Below are positions 34,213 through 64,000 of a stretch of 64,000 bases of DNA, one piece after another. Under the pieces are notes generated by a model. That model worked only from the letters and a program-made list of their open reading frames with translations. It did not search any database and was not told where the DNA came from. The position numbers and the translations under genes were made by a program. Location: the NCBI RefSeq assembly GCF_000024545.1, contig NC_013947.1, forward strand, positions 868,001 to 932,000, in the 5' to 3' direction. Numbering within the stretch: the stretch's first letter is position 1; every line of letters begins with the position of its first letter. The stretch comes from Stackebrandtia nassauensis DSM 44728 (GTDB lineage: Bacteria > Actinomycetota > Actinomycetes > Mycobacteriales > Micromonosporaceae).

Positions 34213-34236
34213 CGGTTAGGTTGACGGCCGTAACCG
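34213..34236. promoter_or_regulatory. Inverted repeat just upstream of the SARP gene
   Basis: CGGTTA (34213-34218) and TAACCG (34231-34236) flank a 12-base spacer and end 14 bases before the GTG start, reaching the ribosome site (GGAGG, 34242-34246). It could be an operator or a 5' mRNA hairpin. The evidence is arm complementarity only. Confidence 0.35.
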
Positions 34237-34250
34237 GCTGTGGAGGTGTC

Positions 34251-37200
34251 GTGGAGTATCGGATTCTGGGGCCGCTGGAGGTCGTCCGGGACGGGGTTCC
34301 GATCGCCATCAAGGGGCGGCACCAACCGCGCCTGCTCGCGATGCTGCTACTGGAGGCGGGCCAGACGGTGACGCTTTCGCGGCTGGTGGACGTGCTGTGG
34401 GACGAAGAACCCCCGGAGACGGCCCGGCGCCAAGCGCAGAACTACATGGCGGCGTTGCGCAGAACCCTCGGCACGAGCAACCCGATCGAGGTGGTGGGGG
34501 AGGGATACCGGTTCGCGGCTGGGGACAGCTTTGTGGACTCCGTTCGGTTCGAGGAGCTGAACCACCTGGCGCGTCACGACGCACGCGAGGGCAGACATGC
34601 CAAGGCGTTGCCGAGCTTCGACGAGGCACTGGGCCTGTGGCGAGGACCGACCCTGGCGGGGTTGTCGGCGCGGTGGCTGGAATCGCGGTCAAGGCGACTC
34701 GACGATCTCCGCCTCGGCATGATCGAGGACCGCGCGGCGAGCCTCCTCGAACTGGGGCGACACGCGGACGTGGTGGGGGAGCTGGCGGAACTGTTGGCGG
34801 AGAAGCCGTATCGACAGCAGGCGGCACGACATCTGATGCTGGCGCTGTATCGGTGTGGCAGGGGTGCCGAGGCGCTGGAGGTCTTTGGGGCACTACGGAC
34901 GCGGTTGGCGGAGGAACTGGGGATCGACCCGAATCCGATGGTGCGGGAGCTGCATGGGCGGATCCTGCGGGAGGACGCGTCGCTGGCGGTGCCGCGGCCA
35001 GAGATGTCAATCGTTGCGGCTAAGCCAGAGATTCTGGTGCCCGCACAGCTTCCGGCGGGCGTGGCGACGTTCACCGGCCGGGATGAAGAGCTGGCCGAGT
35101 TGGACAGGCTGTTCGACTCCGGAGCCGCTGTCACCGTATTGTCGGCGATCTCCGGTGGTGGTGGCGTGGGAAAGACTGCGTTGGCGGTCCACTGGAGTCG
35201 GAATCGGACCGAAAGGTTCCCTGACGGACAGCTCTACGTCAACCTGCGCGGTTTTGACCACAATGAACCGTTGAAGCCCATTGACGCGCTATCACGATTC
35301 CTTCGTGCGCTTGGGACTCCGAGCGCCAAAATTCCGGCAGAGACCGAGGAGGCGTCGGCGCTGTTTCGCTCGGTGATGAACGGCCGGAACATGCTGGTGG
35401 TCTTGGACAACGCCCGAACTGCTGAGCAGGTGCGACCGTTGTTGCCGGGCGGCCAGGACAACGCCGTCCTGGTGACGAGCCGCAATCGGCTGGCGAGCCT
35501 GGCGGCGCTCAATGACGCCAAGCTCATGGCTTTGGATGTGCTCAGCCTTACGGAGTCGTTGGAGCTACTGGCCGAGCTGATTGGGGCTGATCGGGTTAAC
35601 GCGGATCCGGATTCTGCCCGTCGGCTGGTCGAATTGTGCGGTCATCTTCCGCTGGCATTGCGGATCGCGGCCGCTAGCCTGGCGGCAAGGTCCGATGGCT
35701 CGATATCCAATTTGGCGTCCGAACTTGACAGCGTTTCTCGGCTGGAGATCCTCAGCATCGAGGGCGACCCGTACTCAGCTGTTACGGCGACGTTTGACCT
35801 ATCAGTCGGCGCTTTGAGCATTGAGGCCCGGGATCTGTTCCTGCGCCTGGGGATGATTCCGGGTGAGGACATTGCGGAAGGACTGGCCGTTGAGGTTTCG
35901 GGCCACCAGGAGGATCGAGCCAAGGACCTGTTGCAGGGTCTGGTTTCTGCACACTTGCTCGAGACGCATGTTCCAGGGAGGTACCGCTTCCATGACCTGG
36001 TGAGAATCTATGCGCATCGTTGCGCAATTGACAAGTTGAGTAGCTCAATTTGTGAATCGATTATCGATACGCTCGTCGCTTGGTACTTCCAGAATCGTGG
36101 TCGAATCAGTCCCGATGAAATTCCAAATGTGGTTACCACCTGCAAGTTGCTGAACAAACATCCGGAGATGTGGCGGGTGGCATACACCTTGAGCATGATC
36201 ACGCACCACGGGCTCGGTTTGAAAGTCGCCCGTGACCAATGTGAGATCGCTTTGAGGATCGCTGAGGTGTATAACGACAGGCATGGCCAAGCACGCATGC
36301 TGTCTGCACTTGGGGGGATTCAATATGCACTAGGGGAAACGGAGCTTTCCATTGAATTGTCCCGGAAATCCGTAGCCACAATAGATCCTAATGTGGACTC
36401 ACGGACATACGGCGACTTGTGTAACAACCTCGGAATTCGGCTTAGTTGGAGCGGTCGGTATCGGGAAGCCGAGGAGTGGCTGGTGAAGTCATTGCAGCCG
36501 GGTTATATGGCTGAAGGCGTTCATTTTGAACTGGTGCGCGTGCTTAATTTGGGAACTGTGTACAGGGCGTTGGGGCGTTATGGTGATGCATTGGCATACC
36601 TGGATCGAAGTGCGGCACTTTTGTCGAAGCTCGAAAGCCGATCAATCGCCGCGAGCATTTATCTCGCCAGAGCGCTATTGGAGAACGATCGAGGTCGCCA
36701 CCGTAAAGCTTGGGCCTATGCCCAGGAGGCATTGCTTGCAGGTCAGCAGTGCAAGTCTGTTCGTTCGATAGTGATCGCGCTCCAGCAACGAGGTTTGGCA
36801 GAGTTTGGGTGCGGGAAAATCGAGCGAGCGCGTGAGGACTATCTTGCGTCTACAGTACGAGCAAATGAACACGGAATGTCTACAGTAGAGCGTCGCAACT
36901 ACTGTTTTCTCGCGGACCTCGAATGTTTCGCTGGCGACAATAGTCGAGCAGTGAAGTATCTGGAGTCAGCAGCAGCAGTGGAAGTCTTGCAACCTCCTAG
37001 ATACCTGGTTGCAGAGATGCTGCGCGTGGACAGCAACGTTCGTTTGAAACTGAACGCGTATCGGCATGCTGTAAGTACGGGACGCAAGGCCGCAGCCTTG
37101 TTCGCCTCAATGCCTGATCCGCTGCGCCATGCGCGTTCGTTGGTGATAGTCGCTAGGGCATATGAGGGCTTGGCCGACTACAACAAAGCAGCAGACGCTC

Positions 37201-37283
37201 GCCAAGAAGCCCTAGCCATCTTCACTCGTCTGGGAGTCCCCGAAACCGCAGTGCTGCGGGCCGAAATCGACGCTCACAGCTGA
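34251..37283 (+). CDS. SARP/AfsR-type regulator (BTAD + NB-ARC + TPR)
   Basis: A 1010-residue pathway-type activator. Residues 1-95 are the OmpR-like winged helix (VEYRILGPLEVVRDG...), about 96-245 the bacterial activator (BTAD) helices, 275-560 an NB-ARC ATPase with P-loop GGGGVGKT (302-309), and about 640-1000 TPR-like repeats. This is the AfsR architecture; the ATPase/TPR part senses a signal and the N-terminus binds heptamer direct repeats. GTG 34251 has GGAGG close upstream. The 3' half is near 50% GC in sampled 60-base lines, far below neighbours. No biosynthetic cluster adjoins, but SARP-like repeats lie 0.6 kb downstream. Confidence 0.9.
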   Translation: MEYRILGPLEVVRDGVPIAIKGRHQPRLLAMLLLEAGQTVTLSRLVDVLWDEEPPETARRQAQNYMAALRRTLGTSNPIEVVGEGYRFAAGDSFVDSVRFEELNHLARHDAREGRHAKALPSFDEALGLWRGPTLAGLSARWLESRSRRLDDLRLGMIEDRAASLLELGRHADVVGELAELLAEKPYRQQAARHLMLALYRCGRGAEALEVFGALRTRLAEELGIDPNPMVRELHGRILREDASLAVPRPEMSIVAAKPEILVPAQLPAGVATFTGRDEELAELDRLFDSGAAVTVLSAISGGGGVGKTALAVHWSRNRTERFPDGQLYVNLRGFDHNEPLKPIDALSRFLRALGTPSAKIPAETEEASALFRSVMNGRNMLVVLDNARTAEQVRPLLPGGQDNAVLVTSRNRLASLAALNDAKLMALDVLSLTESLELLAELIGADRVNADPDSARRLVELCGHLPLALRIAAASLAARSDGSISNLASELDSVSRLEILSIEGDPYSAVTATFDLSVGALSIEARDLFLRLGMIPGEDIAEGLAVEVSGHQEDRAKDLLQGLVSAHLLETHVPGRYRFHDLVRIYAHRCAIDKLSSSICESIIDTLVAWYFQNRGRISPDEIPNVVTTCKLLNKHPEMWRVAYTLSMITHHGLGLKVARDQCEIALRIAEVYNDRHGQARMLSALGGIQYALGETELSIELSRKSVATIDPNVDSRTYGDLCNNLGIRLSWSGRYREAEEWLVKSLQPGYMAEGVHFELVRVLNLGTVYRALGRYGDALAYLDRSAALLSKLESRSIAASIYLARALLENDRGRHRKAWAYAQEALLAGQQCKSVRSIVIALQQRGLAEFGCGKIERAREDYLASTVRANEHGMSTVERRNYCFLADLECFAGDNSRAVKYLESAAAVEVLQPPRYLVAEMLRVDSNVRLKLNAYRHAVSTGRKAAALFASMPDPLRHARSLVIVARAYEGLADYNKAADARQEALAIFTRLGVPETAVLRAEIDAHS

Positions 37284-37514: not shown

Positions 37515-37850
37515 CTATACGGCGGGCTGTCCGGCCAGTTTGTCCAGGAGGTTGTGGAGGCGGGTTTTCCCGTTGGCGACTTCCTCCGGTTTGACCTTTA
37601 CTCCGCACAGGTCCATGAACTGGGCGACCGTCGCTTCGCGGAGCGCGGTCACCGCCGTTTGGTAGGTGGTGGTGACGGTGGTGGACAGTTGTTTGGGGGT
37701 CAGGTACGAGTAGGCGTCGGGCTCGATGGTGACGTCGCGCAGGATCCCGCCCGGGCCGACCGTGACCGTGACGAGGCGGCGGGGGTCCCAGGCGGTCATT
37801 CCGTCCGCTTCGGCTCGGTGGTTGGCTTCCTTCAGTACGGTTTCACCCAT
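37515..37850 (-). CDS. YbaB/EbfC-family protein
   Basis: A 111-residue protein of the YbaB/EbfC type, small dimeric DNA-associated proteins. It has the helix - three-strand - helix layout with the telltale VTVTVGPGGILRDVTIEPDAY strand pair. Actinobacterial versions often sit beside WXG or regulator genes rather than dnaX. ATG 37850 was chosen; AGGAG lies about 15 bases upstream and a GTG at 37910 is in frame but would overlap the promoter elements. Its upstream region has three 11-bp-spaced heptamers, so it is the best candidate target of the neighbouring SARP. Confidence 0.78.
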   Translation of the reverse strand: MGETVLKEANHRAEADGMTAWDPRRLVTVTVGPGGILRDVTIEPDAYSYLTPKQLSTTVTTTYQTAVTALREATVAQFMDLCGVKVKPEEVANGKTRLHNLLDKLAGQPAV

Positions 37851-37891
37851 AGCTAGTGCGTCCTCTCCTCGCTCTTGCTTGGCGGACACAA

Positions 37892-37935
37892 CGATTACTC
37901 GCGGTTGCACGAGTTCGGCACGAGTCGTGCACGAG
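37892..37935 (-). promoter_or_regulatory. SARP-like heptamer direct repeats and -10 of the YbaB-like gene
   Basis: GCACGAG occurs perfectly three times at 37907, 37918 and 37929, each separated by four bases: an exact 11-bp period. On the minus strand the units read TCGTGCA, TCGTGCC, TCGTGCA. Eight bases after the last unit comes TAATCG (37892-37897), a candidate -10. SARP activators are known to bind heptamers at 11-bp pitch with the last repeat 8 bp from the -10, and their classic unit TCGAGCC is similar. The middle/third units also form a palindrome GCACGAgTCGTGC, an alternative operator reading. Confidence 0.65.
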
Positions 37936-38072
37936 GGGTGGGTCGTTACGAAGCTGTGACCAGTCGGGGCATTCCCCAGTTACTGGTGAGTTCGCTAAGC
38001 TGCCCTGATCAGCCGGACGCCCCGTATTTCATACCGGCTTCCCTATGGTGTCTGGCGGGAAGGTCAACGCAC

Positions 38073-38894
38073 ATGGGCGTGGGTGCCGAAGTCGTTGGGC
38101 TTACCAAGTCCTTCAACGGCAACAAACCCGTATGGTCGGACGTGTCGCTAACGGTACCGTCCGGCGATATCACCGTGCTGCTCGGACCTTCCGGTACCGG
38201 TAAGTCGGTGTTCCTCAAGACGCTCATCGGGTTGTTGCGTCCGGACCGGGGCAAGGTGTTCATCGATGGTCAGGAGTTGACCGCGATGAGCGACCGGGAG
38301 TTGTACGCGATCCGGCAGCGATGTGGGGTGTTGTTCCAGGATGGGGCCCTGTTCGGGTCGATGAACATCTACGACAACATCGCGTTTCCGTTGCGGGAGC
38401 ACACGCGGAAGACGGAGCGGGAGATCCGCCGGATCGTGATGCAGCGGCTGGACGTCGTGGGCATGGTCGGCGACGAGGACAAGCTGCCCTCGGAGATATC
38501 GGGCGGTATGCGCAAGCGCGCCGGACTGGCGCGGGCGCTGGTCATGGACCCCGAGCTGATCCTGTGCGACGAACCCGACTCCGGTTTGGACCCGGTGCGG
38601 ACCGCGCTGCTGAGCAAGACCATCGCGGAGCTGAACGCCGAGACCGGGGCGACGTTCCTGATCGTCACGCACGACATCAACACCGCGCGGACCCTGCCGC
38701 ACCACATCGGGATGCTCTACCTGGGGCAGCTGGTCGCGTTCGAGCGGCGGGAACAGATGCTGGCCTCGGACAAGCCGGTGGTCCGGCAGTTCCTGAACGC
38801 CTCGATCGAGGGGCCGATCGGGATGACCGAGGAGAAGGACGCCAACGGGCAGAACGGACAGACAGCGCAGCAGCCGTTCGGGGTCGCCCAGTGA
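38073..38894 (+). CDS. Mce/Mla-type ABC transporter ATPase (MlaF/Mkl-like)
   Basis: A 273-residue ATPase of the lipid-transport ABC group. Walker A GPSGTGKS is at 38-45; signature SGGMRKRAGLARAL and Walker B LILCDEPDSGLDP follow. These are the MlaF/Mkl variants, with the R-K-R signature flank. The C-terminus (about 25 residues, Gln/Asn-rich) is extra and resembles the tails seen in Mkl proteins. GGGAAGG lies about 10 bases before ATG 38073. It overlaps the first permease gene by 4 bases and energises the YrbE-Mce lipid importer encoded next. Confidence 0.9.
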   Translation: MGVGAEVVGLTKSFNGNKPVWSDVSLTVPSGDITVLLGPSGTGKSVFLKTLIGLLRPDRGKVFIDGQELTAMSDRELYAIRQRCGVLFQDGALFGSMNIYDNIAFPLREHTRKTEREIRRIVMQRLDVVGMVGDEDKLPSEISGGMRKRAGLARALVMDPELILCDEPDSGLDPVRTALLSKTIAELNAETGATFLIVTHDINTARTLPHHIGMLYLGQLVAFERREQMLASDKPVVRQFLNASIEGPIGMTEEKDANGQNGQTAQQPFGVAQ

Positions 38895-39709
38895 CGACCC
38901 AGGCCGCCGAACCGCAGCAAGCCACCCCGCCGCCCGCACCCGGGCCGATGGGGAGGATGTTCGCGGGGGTCGGCCGGTTCACCGGGTTCACCATCGACAC
39001 CTTCAAGGCGGTGCCGCGGCGGCCGTTCCAGTGGTCCGAGGCGATCAAGCAGGCGTGGTTCATCGCGAGCGTGTCGATCCTGCCGACGGCGTTGGTGGCG
39101 ATCCCGTTCGGCGCGGTCATCGCGTTGCAGCTGGGCTCGCTGTCGAAGCAGATCGGGGCGGAGTCCTTCGCCGGGGCCGCCAGTGTTCTGGCCGTGGTCC
39201 GCGAGGCCGGGCCGATCGTGACCGCGCTGCTGATCTCGGGCGCGGGCGGGTCGGCGATGTGCGCCGATCTGGGGGCGCGCAAGATCCGGGAAGAGCTGGA
39301 CGCGATGGAGACGCTCGGCGTCGACCCGATCCAGCGGCTGGTGGTGCCGCGCATGTTCGCCGGTGCCGTGGTGGCGTTCTTCCTCAACGGGGTGGTCTCG
39401 GCGGTGGGTATCGCCGGTGGCTACATCTTCAACGTGTACATGCAGGACGGGACGCCGGGCTCGTACCTGGCGTCGTTCGCCGCGCTGGGGCAGGTCGCCG
39501 ACGTGGTGTCGGCGCAGCTGCGCGCCATCGTGTTCGGCATGGTGGCGGCGCTGATCGCCTGCTATCTGGGCATGAACGCCAAGGGCGGCCCCAAGGGGGT
39601 CGGCCAGGCCGTGAACGTGTCGGTGGTCGTGAACTTCATGGTGCTGTTCGCGTTCAACTTCGTGATGGTGGCCCTGTACTTCCAGCTGGTTCCGCAGAAG
39701 GGTTCGTGA
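38891..39709 (+). CDS. YrbE/MlaE-family permease A
   Basis: A 272-residue MlaE-type permease with five or six helices. The family coupling region EAGPIVTALLISGAGGSAM and ARKIREELDAMETLGVDPI is intact. It pairs with the next YrbE to form the membrane part of a Mce lipid transporter. The GTG start overlaps the ATPase stop (GTGA). The first 35 residues are a proline-rich cytoplasmic extension. Confidence 0.92.
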   Translation: MTTQAAEPQQATPPPAPGPMGRMFAGVGRFTGFTIDTFKAVPRRPFQWSEAIKQAWFIASVSILPTALVAIPFGAVIALQLGSLSKQIGAESFAGAASVLAVVREAGPIVTALLISGAGGSAMCADLGARKIREELDAMETLGVDPIQRLVVPRMFAGAVVAFFLNGVVSAVGIAGGYIFNVYMQDGTPGSYLASFAALGQVADVVSAQLRAIVFGMVAALIACYLGMNAKGGPKGVGQAVNVSVVVNFMVLFAFNFVMVALYFQLVPQKGS

Positions 39710-39710
39710 C

Positions 39711-40499
39711 ATGTTGACGTCCCTGGGAACCCAGTTGCAGTTCTACGTCCGCGCCATCGCGTGGATGCCCAAGGCCGTGGTGCGCTACCGCAAGGAGGTC
39801 GCGCGGCTGTTGGGCGAGGTCAGCTTCGGCGCCGGTGGCCTGACCGTCGTGGGCGGCACCGTCGGCGTGGTGGTGTTCCTGACCTTCTTCACCGGCACCG
39901 AGGTCGGCCTGCAGGGCTACCAGGCCCTCAACCAGGTCGGCACCAGCGCCTTCACCGGGTTCATCTCGGCGTACTTCAACACCCGTGAGATCGCGCCGCT
40001 GGTGGCGGGTATCGCGCTGTCGGCGACGGTCGGCGCGGGTTTCACCGCCCAGCTGGGCGCCATGCGGGTCAACGAGGAGGTGGACGCGCTCGAGGTCATG
40101 GGCGTGCGTTCGCTGCCGTACCTGGTGACGACCCGGATGCTGGCCGGGCTGGCCGCGTGTGTGCCGCTGTACGTGCTGGCGCTGTTGTCCAGCTACGTCG
40201 CCACCCGCGGCGTCGCGATCTTCTACTTCGGTCAGTCCTCGGGGACCTACGACCACTACTTCTCGACCTTCCTGGTGCCCGGCGACGTGCTGTGGTCCTT
40301 CGGGAAGGTGCTGTGCTTCTCCGTCATCGTGATCGGCGTGCACTGTTACTACGGCTACCACGCCTCGGGCGGTCCCGCCGGTGTCGGTGTCGCGGTCGGC
40401 CGGGCCGTCCGGACGGCTATCGTCGCAGTTAACATTGTCGATTTCTTTGTGTCGCTTGCCGTGTGGGGAGCAACCACGACAGTCAGGATCGCCGGATGA
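39711..40499 (+). CDS. YrbE/MlaE-family permease B
   Basis: A 262-residue second MlaE-type permease. It shares the coupling region (REIAPLVAGIALSATVGAGF, AMRVNEEVDALEVMGVRSLP) with permease A but lacks the proline-rich N-terminus. The ATG is one base after the permease A stop, and the gene overlaps the Mce gene by 4 bases (ATGA). Mce systems use an A/B heterodimer, so both permeases likely assemble around one channel. Confidence 0.92.
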   Translation: MLTSLGTQLQFYVRAIAWMPKAVVRYRKEVARLLGEVSFGAGGLTVVGGTVGVVVFLTFFTGTEVGLQGYQALNQVGTSAFTGFISAYFNTREIAPLVAGIALSATVGAGFTAQLGAMRVNEEVDALEVMGVRSLPYLVTTRMLAGLAACVPLYVLALLSSYVATRGVAIFYFGQSSGTYDHYFSTFLVPGDVLWSFGKVLCFSVIVIGVHCYYGYHASGGPAGVGVAVGRAVRTAIVAVNIVDFFVSLAVWGATTTVRIAG

Positions 40500-41854
40500 A
40501 GCAGCGAATCGCCGGTCTCGGCTTTCTTCTCGTCCTCGCGGCGCTGCTGGGTCTGTGCGTGGCGTCCTATATGAAACTGTTCAGCCCCAAGGTGGACGTG
40601 ACCGTGCAGGCCGCCACGGCGGGACTGCAGATGTCCCGGGGCGCCGACGTGAAGCTGCACGGCGTGCTGGTCGGCGAGGTCCGCGACATCAACTCCACAG
40701 GCGACGGCGCCGAGCTGGATGTGGCGCTGGACCCCGATTCCACCGCCTCGATCCCGGCCGGGGTCACCGCCCGGCTGCTGCCCAAGACGCTGTTCGGCGA
40801 GAAGTACGTCGAACTGATCGCCCCCAAGTCCGACACCGGTGGTTCGATCCAGCCCAACACCGTCGTCAAGGAGGACAAGTCCAAGGAGGCCGTCGAACTG
40901 AACGACGTCCTGGACGGGGCGCTGCCGCTGCTGCGGGCCGTCCCGCCGGAGAAGCTGTCGGTGACGCTGTCGGCCATCGCCGGCGCGCTCGACGGCCGTG
41001 GTGACGAACTGGGCGACACGATCGTGAAGCTCGGCGACATCGTCCGCACCCTGAACAAGGAGATGCCGACCATCGAGGCCGACATCGACGAGCTGGCCAA
41101 GGTGCTGGACAACTACCGGGGCGCGCTGCCCGACCTGACGAAGGTCCTGGAGAACCTGACGGTCACCAACAAGACCATCACCGACCAGGAGGACGAGCTG
41201 CAGGCGATGTGGATGTCGACGCAGGACTTCAGCGACGACACCCGGGTGTTCCTGGACCGCTACCAGGGACGGCTGATCCAGTTCGGCGAGGTCACGCAGC
41301 CGTTCATCGAGCTGCTGGCGACCTACTCGCCGGAGTATCCGTGCCTGTTCCAGGGCCTGACCGAGCTTCAGCCCGACATCGAGGAGGCCTTCTCGGGCGG
41401 GCGGCTGCACATCACGCTGGAGATCACCCAGAACAACGGCAAGTACGAGTCCGGCCGCGACGAACCCGAGTGGACCAGCCAGTACGGGCCCAACTGCCGG
41501 GGCCTGCCGGAGGGCAACTCGGAGGCCGCCGAGAACCAGTTCGGCAACGGCTACGACTACGACGGTGAGCGCAGCAACCTGCCGATCGAGATCCCGGGGC
41601 TGACCGACGCCCCGGCGCAGGAAGACGACGAGGGCACCAACGCCGAGAACAAGGACGATGAGGACGAGGACGGTCCCGGCGTCGAGCTGCCGTTCGATCC
41701 GATGATGGGCTACGCCGGTACCGAGGAGGAACAGTCGGTGTTCACGCCGATGGTGGCCGCCTCGACCGGTTCCGACGTCACCGACCTCAACGGCGACCTG
41801 GTCTCGTTGCTGTACGGACCGATCTTCCGGGGTGCCACAATTTCTGCCCGTTAG
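40496..41854 (+). CDS. MCE-family substrate-channel protein (single Mce)
   Basis: A 452-residue MCE protein. One N-terminal membrane anchor (RIAGLGFLLVLAALLGLCVA) is followed by the MlaD/MCE beta domain (VDVTVQAATAGLQMSRGADVKL) and a helical needle region. The C-terminus has an acidic low-complexity stretch (NKDDEDEDGPG). It would form the lipid tunnel outside the membrane. Canonical actinobacterial operons carry six mce genes (A-F); here the operon ends after this first one, and a GDPD gene with its own leader follows 132 bases later. Confidence 0.9.
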   Translation: MKQRIAGLGFLLVLAALLGLCVASYMKLFSPKVDVTVQAATAGLQMSRGADVKLHGVLVGEVRDINSTGDGAELDVALDPDSTASIPAGVTARLLPKTLFGEKYVELIAPKSDTGGSIQPNTVVKEDKSKEAVELNDVLDGALPLLRAVPPEKLSVTLSAIAGALDGRGDELGDTIVKLGDIVRTLNKEMPTIEADIDELAKVLDNYRGALPDLTKVLENLTVTNKTITDQEDELQAMWMSTQDFSDDTRVFLDRYQGRLIQFGEVTQPFIELLATYSPEYPCLFQGLTELQPDIEEAFSGGRLHITLEITQNNGKYESGRDEPEWTSQYGPNCRGLPEGNSEAAENQFGNGYDYDGERSNLPIEIPGLTDAPAQEDDEGTNAENKDDEDEDGPGVELPFDPMMGYAGTEEEQSVFTPMVAASTGSDVTDLNGDLVSLLYGPIFRGATISAR

Positions 41855-62397: not shown

Positions 62398-63321
62398 ATG
62401 GGCAGACGCAGCATCGACGAGTCCACCGTCCTGACCGACGGACCCTGGAAACACCGCTACGTCGACGCCAACGGGGTGCGCTTCCACGTCGCCGAGATGG
62501 GCCACGGCCCGCTCATCCTGCTGCTGCACGGATTCCCGGAGTTCTGGTGGGCCTGGCACCGCCAGCTCCCGGCGCTGGCCGACGCCGGTTACCGGGTCGC
62601 CGCGGTCGACCTGCGCGGCTACGGCGCCTCCGACAAACCGCCGCGCGGCTACGACGCCTACACGATGGCCTCCGACATCACCGGACTGATCCGCTCACTG
62701 GGCGAACGCGAAGCCGTCCTGGTCGGGCACGACCTGGGCGGCATGCTCGCCTTCGCCGCCGCCGCGTTCCACCCCGGCAGCGTCCGGCGGCTGGTCATCC
62801 TGTCGGCGGCCCATCCGCTGCGGCAGCGCGCCGCCCTGGCCGTCGACCCGCGCGGCCAACTGTCGGCCAGCCGACACATTCTCGCGTTCCAGCTACCCCG
62901 ATTCGAACACGTCCTCACAAAGAACGACGCCGCCATGGTGGGGAACCTGATGCGGCACTGGGTCGGCCCCGACCATGCCGACGAGGCCGAGTTCGCCGAC
63001 TACCTGCGCGTGTGCCGCGACGCCATCCAGCTGCCCCAGGTGGCGTTGCGCGCCCTCACGGCGTACCGGTGGGCACTGCGATCGGCGCTGCTGCCGTCGG
63101 GACGCCGGTTCGTGAAACTGTTGCAGGAACCGATCAAGGCCCCCACGCTGCAGTTGCACGGTTCGGCCGACACCGCCGTACTGCCCCGCACCGCCCAAGG
63201 TTCCGGACGTTATGTAGCCTCCAGCTACGAGTGGCGGGTTCTGGAGGGCGTCGGTCACTTTCCCCAGCTAGAGGCCCCCGAAACCGTCACCGGCGAGATC
63301 CTGCGCTGGGCGAAGGAATAG
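62398..63321 (+). CDS. Alpha/beta hydrolase, epoxide hydrolase-like
   Basis: A 307-residue alpha/beta-hydrolase. The nucleophile elbow is GHDLGG with Asp112, the oxyanion motif HGFPEFWWAWH is intact, and the charge-relay His is in GVGHFPQLEAPE. Aspartate nucleophile plus HGFPE indicates epoxide hydrolase (or haloalkane dehalogenase relatives). Cap-domain tyrosines cannot be assigned surely. ATG 62398 was chosen; TAACGT at 62385-62390 could be the -10 of a leaderless mRNA. A GTG at 62389 is also in frame. Confidence 0.85.
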   Translation: MGRRSIDESTVLTDGPWKHRYVDANGVRFHVAEMGHGPLILLLHGFPEFWWAWHRQLPALADAGYRVAAVDLRGYGASDKPPRGYDAYTMASDITGLIRSLGEREAVLVGHDLGGMLAFAAAAFHPGSVRRLVILSAAHPLRQRAALAVDPRGQLSASRHILAFQLPRFEHVLTKNDAAMVGNLMRHWVGPDHADEAEFADYLRVCRDAIQLPQVALRALTAYRWALRSALLPSGRRFVKLLQEPIKAPTLQLHGSADTAVLPRTAQGSGRYVASSYEWRVLEGVGHFPQLEAPETVTGEILRWAKE

Positions 63322-63460
63322 CAACCGTTTTCAGCGCTCCATAAGAGACAAATACTCCGATAGCGGTTTGGTAACACCTAGGTAATGAACCTTGACAACT
63401 CCACCCAAACGCGGAAGCGTCTGTTTGAAGTTGTTCACTTAATTAGGTATTGGAGGCACC

Positions 63461-64000
63461 GTGAAACGACGCGGTTTCGTAGCGCTGGCGGCGGCGCCCG
63501 CGCTGGCCCCGCTGCTGGCCTCGTGTGGTGGCTCGGAATCCGACGCGAAGAAGGTCGAGATCTTCAGTTGGTGGTCCGGGCCCGGCGAGAAAGAGGGCCT
63601 CGAAAAACTCATCAAGATGTACGAGGACGACAACTCCGGCGTGAAGGTCGTCAACAACGGCATCGCGGGGGGCGGCGGCAGTAAGGCCAAGGACCAGCTC
63701 GCCACCCGGTTGAAGAACCAGGACCCGCCGGACTCGTTCCAGGGCCACGCCGGAGCCGAACTCTACGACTACATCGACAACAAGGTCCTCGAGGACATCA
63801 CGAAGTTCATCAAGTCCGAGAAACTCGACGGCGTGCTGCACCCCGAGATCTTTAAGGGCGTGACGGTCGACGGCAAGACCTACTCGGTCCCGGTGAACGT
63901 GCACCGCGCGAACCTGATGTGGTACAACCCGAAGGTGCTCGAAGAGGCCAAACTGGAGCCTCCGAAGTCCTGGACCGAGCTGATCGAACAGAACAAGAAG
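63461..64000 (+). CDS. Sugar ABC transporter substrate-binding lipoprotein (cut by window end)
   Basis: The first 180 codons of a family 1 (COG1653-type) binding protein; the frame is open at the last base. The lipobox LASC lipidates it (Cys22), and a twin-arginine-like RRGF precedes the hydrophobic core. The mature N-terminus VEIFSWWSGPGEKEGLEKLI and the hinge region YSVPVNVHRANLMWYNPKVL are typical of carbohydrate receptors. GTG 63461 has GGAGG four bases upstream. TTGACA (63392-63397) in the leader may be a -35. Permease genes would be expected to the right of the window. Confidence 0.88.
   Translation, partial: MKRRGFVALAAAPALAPLLASCGGSESDAKKVEIFSWWSGPGEKEGLEKLIKMYEDDNSGVKVVNNGIAGGGGSKAKDQLATRLKNQDPPDSFQGHAGAELYDYIDNKVLEDITKFIKSEKLDGVLHPEIFKGVTVDGKTYSVPVNVHRANLMWYNPKVLEEAKLEPPKSWTELIEQNKK

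Follow-up and report, generated by a model that had tools for sequence, protein, structure and literature searches.

A putative SARP-type operator of three heptamer repeats reading toward a YbaB-like gene in Stackebrandtia nassauensis

We identified an array of three heptamers that, judged from its sequence and spacing, is probably (at a probability of about 0.7) a SARP-type promoter of a YbaB-like gene, whichever SARP binds to it. The array lies in a 64,000-nucleotide stretch of the Stackebrandtia nassauensis genome, hereafter the window (868001-932000 of the single 6,841,557-bp contig), between the YbaB-like gene (37515..37850, minus strand) and a divergent Mce-type operon. Direct reading of the plus strand confirmed the three exact GCACGAG repeats that an earlier note on this DNA had placed at 37907, 37918, and 37929; they occupy 37907-37913, 37918-37924, and 37929-37935, with TTCG and TCGT as spacers. 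On the minus strand, the proposed SARP operator (37907..37935) reads as three CTCGTGC units at 11-bp pitch (37935-37929, 37924-37918, and 37913-37907), the first spacer being ACGA and the second CGAA. In the S. nassauensis genome, both the exact triple and the exact pair CTCGTGC-N4-CTCGTGC occur solely in this array.

Direct repeats at a pitch of 11 bp (or 22 bp) are the hallmark of a SARP operator-promoter that we took from the excerpted text of PMC10936776, which treats AfsR at the afsS promoter (the afs box) of Streptomyces coelicolor (structures 8HVR, 8K60, and 8JKE), and the window array has this pitch. Our calibration set comprised 80 Streptomyces AfsR loci, searched with a pattern of the two repeats only, the hexamer being excluded from it; this gave 77 afs boxes, of which one, truncated at a contig end, was dropped to leave 76 full-length boxes, and at least 3 of the 80 loci are without a box under the pattern used. 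In every full-length box, the distance from the first base of the second repeat to that of an xAxxxT hexamer is exactly 17 nt, whereas any other distance from 6 to 25 nt gives xAxxxT in at most 3 of the 76; the commonest hexamers are CACTCT (30) and CATGCT (11). The same hexamer form stands at 17 nt in the window as well as in five related sites described below, namely, G004a, G004b, and three sites in G001. This geometry, as in 76/76 afs boxes, supports the earlier proposal of a SARP-type operator that reads toward the YbaB-like gene and lies outside an antibiotic cluster.

In the window, the -10-like hexamer, putatively the -10 element, is AATCGT (37891..37896, minus strand), 17 nt on from the first base of the last CTCGTGC. 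The earlier note had set TAATCG 8 bp past a unit written as TCGTGCM; this distance holds, but the hexamer common to the related sites is AATCGT (37896-37891), which starts one base later. The -10-like hexamer thus sits at the fixed distance from the last repeat with a unit edge that is free by about one base, and exact equality with the AfsR register is therefore partly a choice; the equal hexamer position among the mutually aligned CTCGTGC sites is independent of that choice. If AATCGT is the -10, transcription would start at about 37884 (minus strand), and the units would then begin near -29, -40, and -51, an overlap with the -35 position that follows from the spacing. In a random-quadruple test on the window, G004a, G004b, and one G001 array, with draws from the same loci, only 2 of 200,000 quadruples had a common hexamer at one of 11 offsets, the window and G004a being homologous, so that three sites are independent. 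Among 38 distinct sites with two or fewer mismatches, xAxxxT was present at offset 10 in 7 and at eleven other offsets in 6 summed, in an offset test whose loci were partly fetched with the motif itself.

The related sites lie in the sister species G004 and G001. A DNA search with 70 bases gave a clear match besides the window solely in G004, and none of the ten weaker matches that we inspected combines good units with an xAxxxT hexamer. G004 carries two arrays. The first, G004a, matches the window array at all but one motif base and in both spacers, within 52 bp of similar sequence (86.5% identity; E 1.2e-10). It is flanked by an alpha/beta hydrolase on one side and a solute-binding protein on the other; the corresponding region of the window (∼63317-63461) is without the array, and behind G004a we found no YbaB-like gene, just an open reading frame (ORF) without a family match 41 nt on. 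The second, G004b, has three 11-bp repeats 40 nt upstream of a weakly WXG100-like gene (22.2 bits; cut-off 44.85), after which comes a YbaB-like gene (27.4 bits). Just upstream of G004b, a short ORF (L148, 7108-7320) encodes a cysteine-containing peptide that may be a RiPP precursor.

In G001, a weaker array with the units ACTCGGTC, ACTCGGTT, and ACTCGTGC starts 24 bases past the stop of a SARP paralogue and is followed by (i) a 40-aa ORF, (ii) a YbaB-like protein (22.7 bits, below the cut-off), and (iii) a small protein without a family match. The hexamers at the equal position are AATCGT (window), GATGGT (G004a), GATGCT (G004b), and CAGAGT (G001), and the first ATG follows the hexamer by 40, 41, 40, and 35 nt, respectively; since the window and G004a are homologous, these four sites amount to three independent cases. 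Two further G001 sites, each with 2 mismatches (the fewest for G001 in our genus scan), have CATGGT and CAGACT at the equal hexamer position; one lies 154 nt upstream of a YbaB-like gene (35.5 bits) and the other ∼0.24 kb upstream of an Imm1-type gene (43.9 bits). When we looked for the triple in 354 family genomes, allowing up to two mismatches, 14 matched, among which G073, G329, and G034 are accounted for by long 11-bp tandem repeats, and no match was found in G001 or G002.

A second type of array, with a different unit, is conserved in G003 (AATGAGGA; L278, 1193-1510) and G004 (ATCGAGGA; L282, 1213-1510). It has three units at 11-bp pitch and, in both species, is flanked by a SARP gene and by divergent, short, repeated ORFs of MKKIQ type. 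These resemble RiPP precursors, although the one that we searched has no Pfam match. CACACT stands at 17 nt in both, and an overlapping CACTGT at 19 nt fits equally. The arrangement is reminiscent of classic SARP loci and lends weight to our interpretation of such arrays in this genus.

Repeats alone were rejected as a regulon marker. The genome scan suggested in the earlier note found the exact pair confined to the array, and at two or fewer mismatches it gave no genome-wide excess (46 rows vs. 69 for the reversed pattern); a genus scan likewise gave 193 vs. 229. Once the hexamer was required as well, the five genus genomes yielded 22 rows; the reversed pattern gave 3, and shifting the hexamer by 3 nt gave 11 and 8. 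Without the rows of the window, G004a, and G004b, there were 16, compared with 3 for the reversed control and 6 and 8 for the shifted ones; without the rule-defining G001 array also, 15 against a control mean of 5.67 (Poisson P 0.0008); and with two homologous pairs collapsed, 13 against the same mean (Poisson P 0.006). The pairs counted as one each are L392 with L396, which have a common promoter and signal peptide, and L395 with L382, which look homologous. About one third of the rows with repeats and hexamer may still be chance, and those inside long open frames (e.g., L395, L398, and L387) probably are. The better rows in the S. nassauensis genome lie upstream of two Tat-signal proteins (2980739 and 3777584), a membrane-anchored protein (3048244, whose hexamer would be out of place by one base), and another (5166753); a Pfam search of the proteins after these rows gave no telling function, save a propeller domain in one. 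In the two Tat-signal loci (L392 and L396), which encode different exported proteins, the Tat signal peptide and the promoter region are near-identical, as though the pair had been copied jointly.

Generic 11-bp arrays near SARP genes were also rejected as a signal: we counted 25 at 11 bp, and five other pitches gave 24 to 40. Under stricter criteria, 77 SARP loci yielded 20 overlapping rows at 11 bp vs. 2-8 at seven other pitches, all 20 stemming from three loci (the window, L063, and L278). The flanks of 21 other SARPs (700 bases upstream and 1200 downstream) contained no triple with 6/8 constant columns and one perfect pair (L083); a weaker array at L091 surfaced in the generic 11-bp scan and not in this flank scan.

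The proposed target encodes a 111-aa protein that scores above the cut-off for the YbaB/EbfC family (PF02575, 27.5 bits vs. 25.5) and gave no match in an NCBIfam search. A purine-rich stretch that may be its ribosome-binding site, GAGGAGAGG, lies at 37862..37870 on the minus strand. Among 60 relatives we found no clear orthologue, but 17 weak matches, the best with 39% identity over 62 residues. Our upstream scan took 48 of the 53 YbaB-like rows of the genus, five being omitted as partial, doubled, or adjacent. Sites with two or fewer mismatches lie upstream of 3 of the 48 (the window, G004b, and G001 C4:194318); because the other 45 are without such a site, most YbaB-like genes are evidently controlled otherwise. 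At four or fewer mismatches, the scan gave 9 two-unit sites, vs. 4 in the reversed control. Separately, the S. nassauensis genome has four YbaB-like matches in a row (2656832-2657948; L188 and L254); a gap separating two of them contains a degenerate two-unit site with 3 mismatches, the hexamer being absent at the right place.

In the mechanism that we propose, SARP protomers would bind the three repeats side by side on one DNA face at the -35 position, and the bound SARP would recruit RNA polymerase to the weak -10 AATCGT (37896-37891), so that transcription would start near 37884 and read the YbaB-like gene at 37850; binding, activation, and start site are all inferred. SARP genes adjoin arrays twice, ending 0.6 kb from the array in the window and 24 bases from it in G001. 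Against this reading stand the lack of enrichment of hexamer-less repeats and of generic 11-bp arrays near SARP genes, the absence of a YbaB-like gene behind G004a, the 45 YbaB-like matches of the genus that lack an upstream site, and the poor match of AATCGT to a -10 element.

The first candidate for the binding protein, at slightly less than even odds, is the neighboring large SARP (34221..37283, plus strand), which comprises an OmpR-type domain, BTAD, NB-ARC, and TPR, and which may start at GTG 34251, its paralogues beginning with MEFRILG-like sequences. It has the domain order of the SARP family, with an OmpR-type domain (PF00486, 29.4 bits; cut-off 26.2) followed by BTAD (PF03704, 143.8 bits; cut-off 22.1), whereas it falls short of the NCBIfam equivalog for AfsR itself (517.1 bits vs. 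a cut-off of 1430). In its favor are its adjacency and the fact that, in all three array-bearing species, the Mce operon is closely preceded by a SARP. According to the excerpts of PMC10936776, T88 and R92 of AfsR contact bases; by our own count on the alignment, these residues correspond to N74 and A78 in the neighbor, and therefore a unit other than the afs box would be expected for it.

The S. nassauensis genome has 45 SARP-like matches at E ≤1e-15 (with the DNA-binding part of another SARP as query), and it is possible, if rather doubtful, that the operator is bound in trans by one of these paralogues instead of the neighbor, e.g., the SARP at 4426906-4429857. This is a variant of our best explanation, and the probability given above is common to both. 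A clade with support 100/98, comprising that paralogue (4426906), a G001 member (C4:257436), and a G004 member (4927565), spans the three array-bearing genomes and matches the array data roughly as well as the neighbor does; its G001 member is the SARP that ends 24 bases ahead of the array, and both other G001 sites are on contig C4 too. Moreover, 8 of the 10 aligned paralogues from the same genome share the QN recognition-helix type of the neighbor, while the array is unique. On the other hand, the helix varies inside the clade (RH in S. nassauensis and G001, QN in G004), and the SARP tree included one G003 sequence and none from G002, so that the distribution of the clade is partly tested. 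The free tree groups the neighbor with its own-genome paralogues, apart from the Mce-adjacent SARPs of G001 and G004, but an AU test did not reject a clade of the neighbor with these other Mce-adjacent SARPs (p-AU 0.188 and 0.148). The view that the arrays are read by an RH-helix SARP alone lost ground, as the two G004 proteins most similar to that SARP (45% and 48% identical) are of the QN type, although G004 has arrays; helices were read in 6 of the 22 G004 SARP matches, and an RH helix is possible among the remainder. Two observations concern the flanks of other SARP genes: ∼0.2 kb after the S. nassauensis SARP gene at 4149424 (L086) there is an inverted repeat, GCACGAGTTcccgggcgcAACTCGTGC, which presents the array motif in opposite orientations, and a short tandem repeat, GACCGGGCGGGGACCAAGCGC, follows the Mce-adjacent SARP of G001 (L090, 8830-8895).

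An OmpR/PhoP-type response regulator, whose DNA-binding domain has the same fold and also recognizes 11-bp direct repeats, is an improbable alternative occupant. At afsS, PhoP and AfsR recognize overlapping 11-bp repeats (PMC10972967, in part), but the spacing to the -10 is exactly that of the afs box, and SARP genes adjoin both the window array and one G001 array.

We consider it very unlikely that the triple arose by chance or is a functionless, drifting repeat. From composition, ∼0.002 exact triples of any heptamer at 11-bp pitch are expected per 64 kb and ∼0.25 in the whole genome, and none appeared in 150 Markov sequences of 64 kb; with three or fewer mismatches, the triple occurs once in the window, and a single shuffle out of 100 gave a match. 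On both strands of the 64 kb, it is the sole 3-unit array with at least 5/8 constant columns plus an xAxxxT hexamer. On its own, the triple is unusual, yet possible by chance, and the homologous G004 copy sits at a different place, without a YbaB-like gene. Two findings disfavor chance: a sister species carries this near-copy, and the -10-like hexamer stands at a fixed distance; furthermore, nonhomologous analogous arrays keep the equal hexamer distance, and the gene context recurs.

Control of the divergent Mce operon (38073..41854, plus strand; an ABC ATPase, two MlaE permeases, and an MlaD/Mce protein), which the earlier note had entertained, is no better placed, and we think that the operon is no target. 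The array adjoins, just upstream, its promoter core (37944..38015, plus strand), which consists of CGTTA....TGTG and a GCTAAGCTGCCCTGATCAGCC-like element and is conserved, independently of the array, in four species. However, three of these are without the array at this place, and every site described points either at the gene on the opposite side or along its own strand. G001 and G002 gave no match to the triple, and G004 has it at a different location, so the array is dispensable for the Mce promoter. Least probable of all is a dyad operator of a dimeric regulator, as the 13-bp palindromic dyad within the array, GCACGACTCGTGC, recurs among the sites described only in the homologous G004a copy and is missing from the other four (G004b and the three G001 sites), which retain the direct repeats and the hexamer.

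Among known systems, EmbR of Mycobacterium tuberculosis serves non-antibiotic genes, and we know of no operator of three-heptamer form for it. Like the neighboring SARP, EmbR (2FEZ) joins an OmpR-type DNA-binding domain to BTAD; unlike the neighbor, which has NB-ARC and TPR, it has an FHA domain. The AfsR/afsS system shares with the window (i) 11-bp direct repeats at the -35 position, (ii) xAxxxT at 17 nt, counted from the first base of the last repeat, and (iii) a regulator homologous to the neighbor. It differs in the number of repeats (two in the afs box, three here), in the unit (CGTTYATC vs. CTCGTGCM), and in the proposed target, here a YbaB-like gene, and the neighbor is far below the AfsR equivalog cut-off. 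Three-heptamer SARP sites, including that of PimR, are already known and have the same 4-bp spacers (PMC3367932 and PMC10972967, both in part); in the same excerpts, the PimR-type unit is CGGCAAG, 55 nt separate the PimR site from the -35 box downstream of it, and the targets are antibiotic regulators. EspL, an ESX-1 YbaB-type protein tied to type VII secretion (excerpts of PMC6319747), is likewise a small protein with a YbaB-type domain, but no secretion gene stands beside the YbaB-like gene of the window.

What is new is the repeat unit, the kind of target, and the use of the 17-nt spacing rule as a filter. In the open-access literature that we searched, no paper connects SARPs to type VII secretion or to Mce and YbaB, and nothing was found on a polymorphic toxin with YbaB and WXG or on SARP heptameric repeats with RiPPs.

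Most of what is known about SARPs concerns their role as switches of antibiotic clusters. We tentatively suggest, while holding it less probable than not, that a Stackebrandtia SARP has shifted from antibiotic control to scattered secretion-like, toxin-immunity, and exported-protein genes (YbaB-like, weakly WXG100-like, Imm1, and Tat-signal), acting via CTCGTGCM repeats 17 nt before xAxxxT. If this is true, the large SARP expansion of Stackebrandtia genomes would partly serve such modules. A promoter of SARP geometry before YbaB-like genes and genes of secretion or immunity type makes other roles of the large SARPs of rare actinomycetes testable, and the 17-nt rule, which holds in 76/76 afs boxes, is a usable filter for SARP targets in GC-rich genomes, where repeats alone say little.
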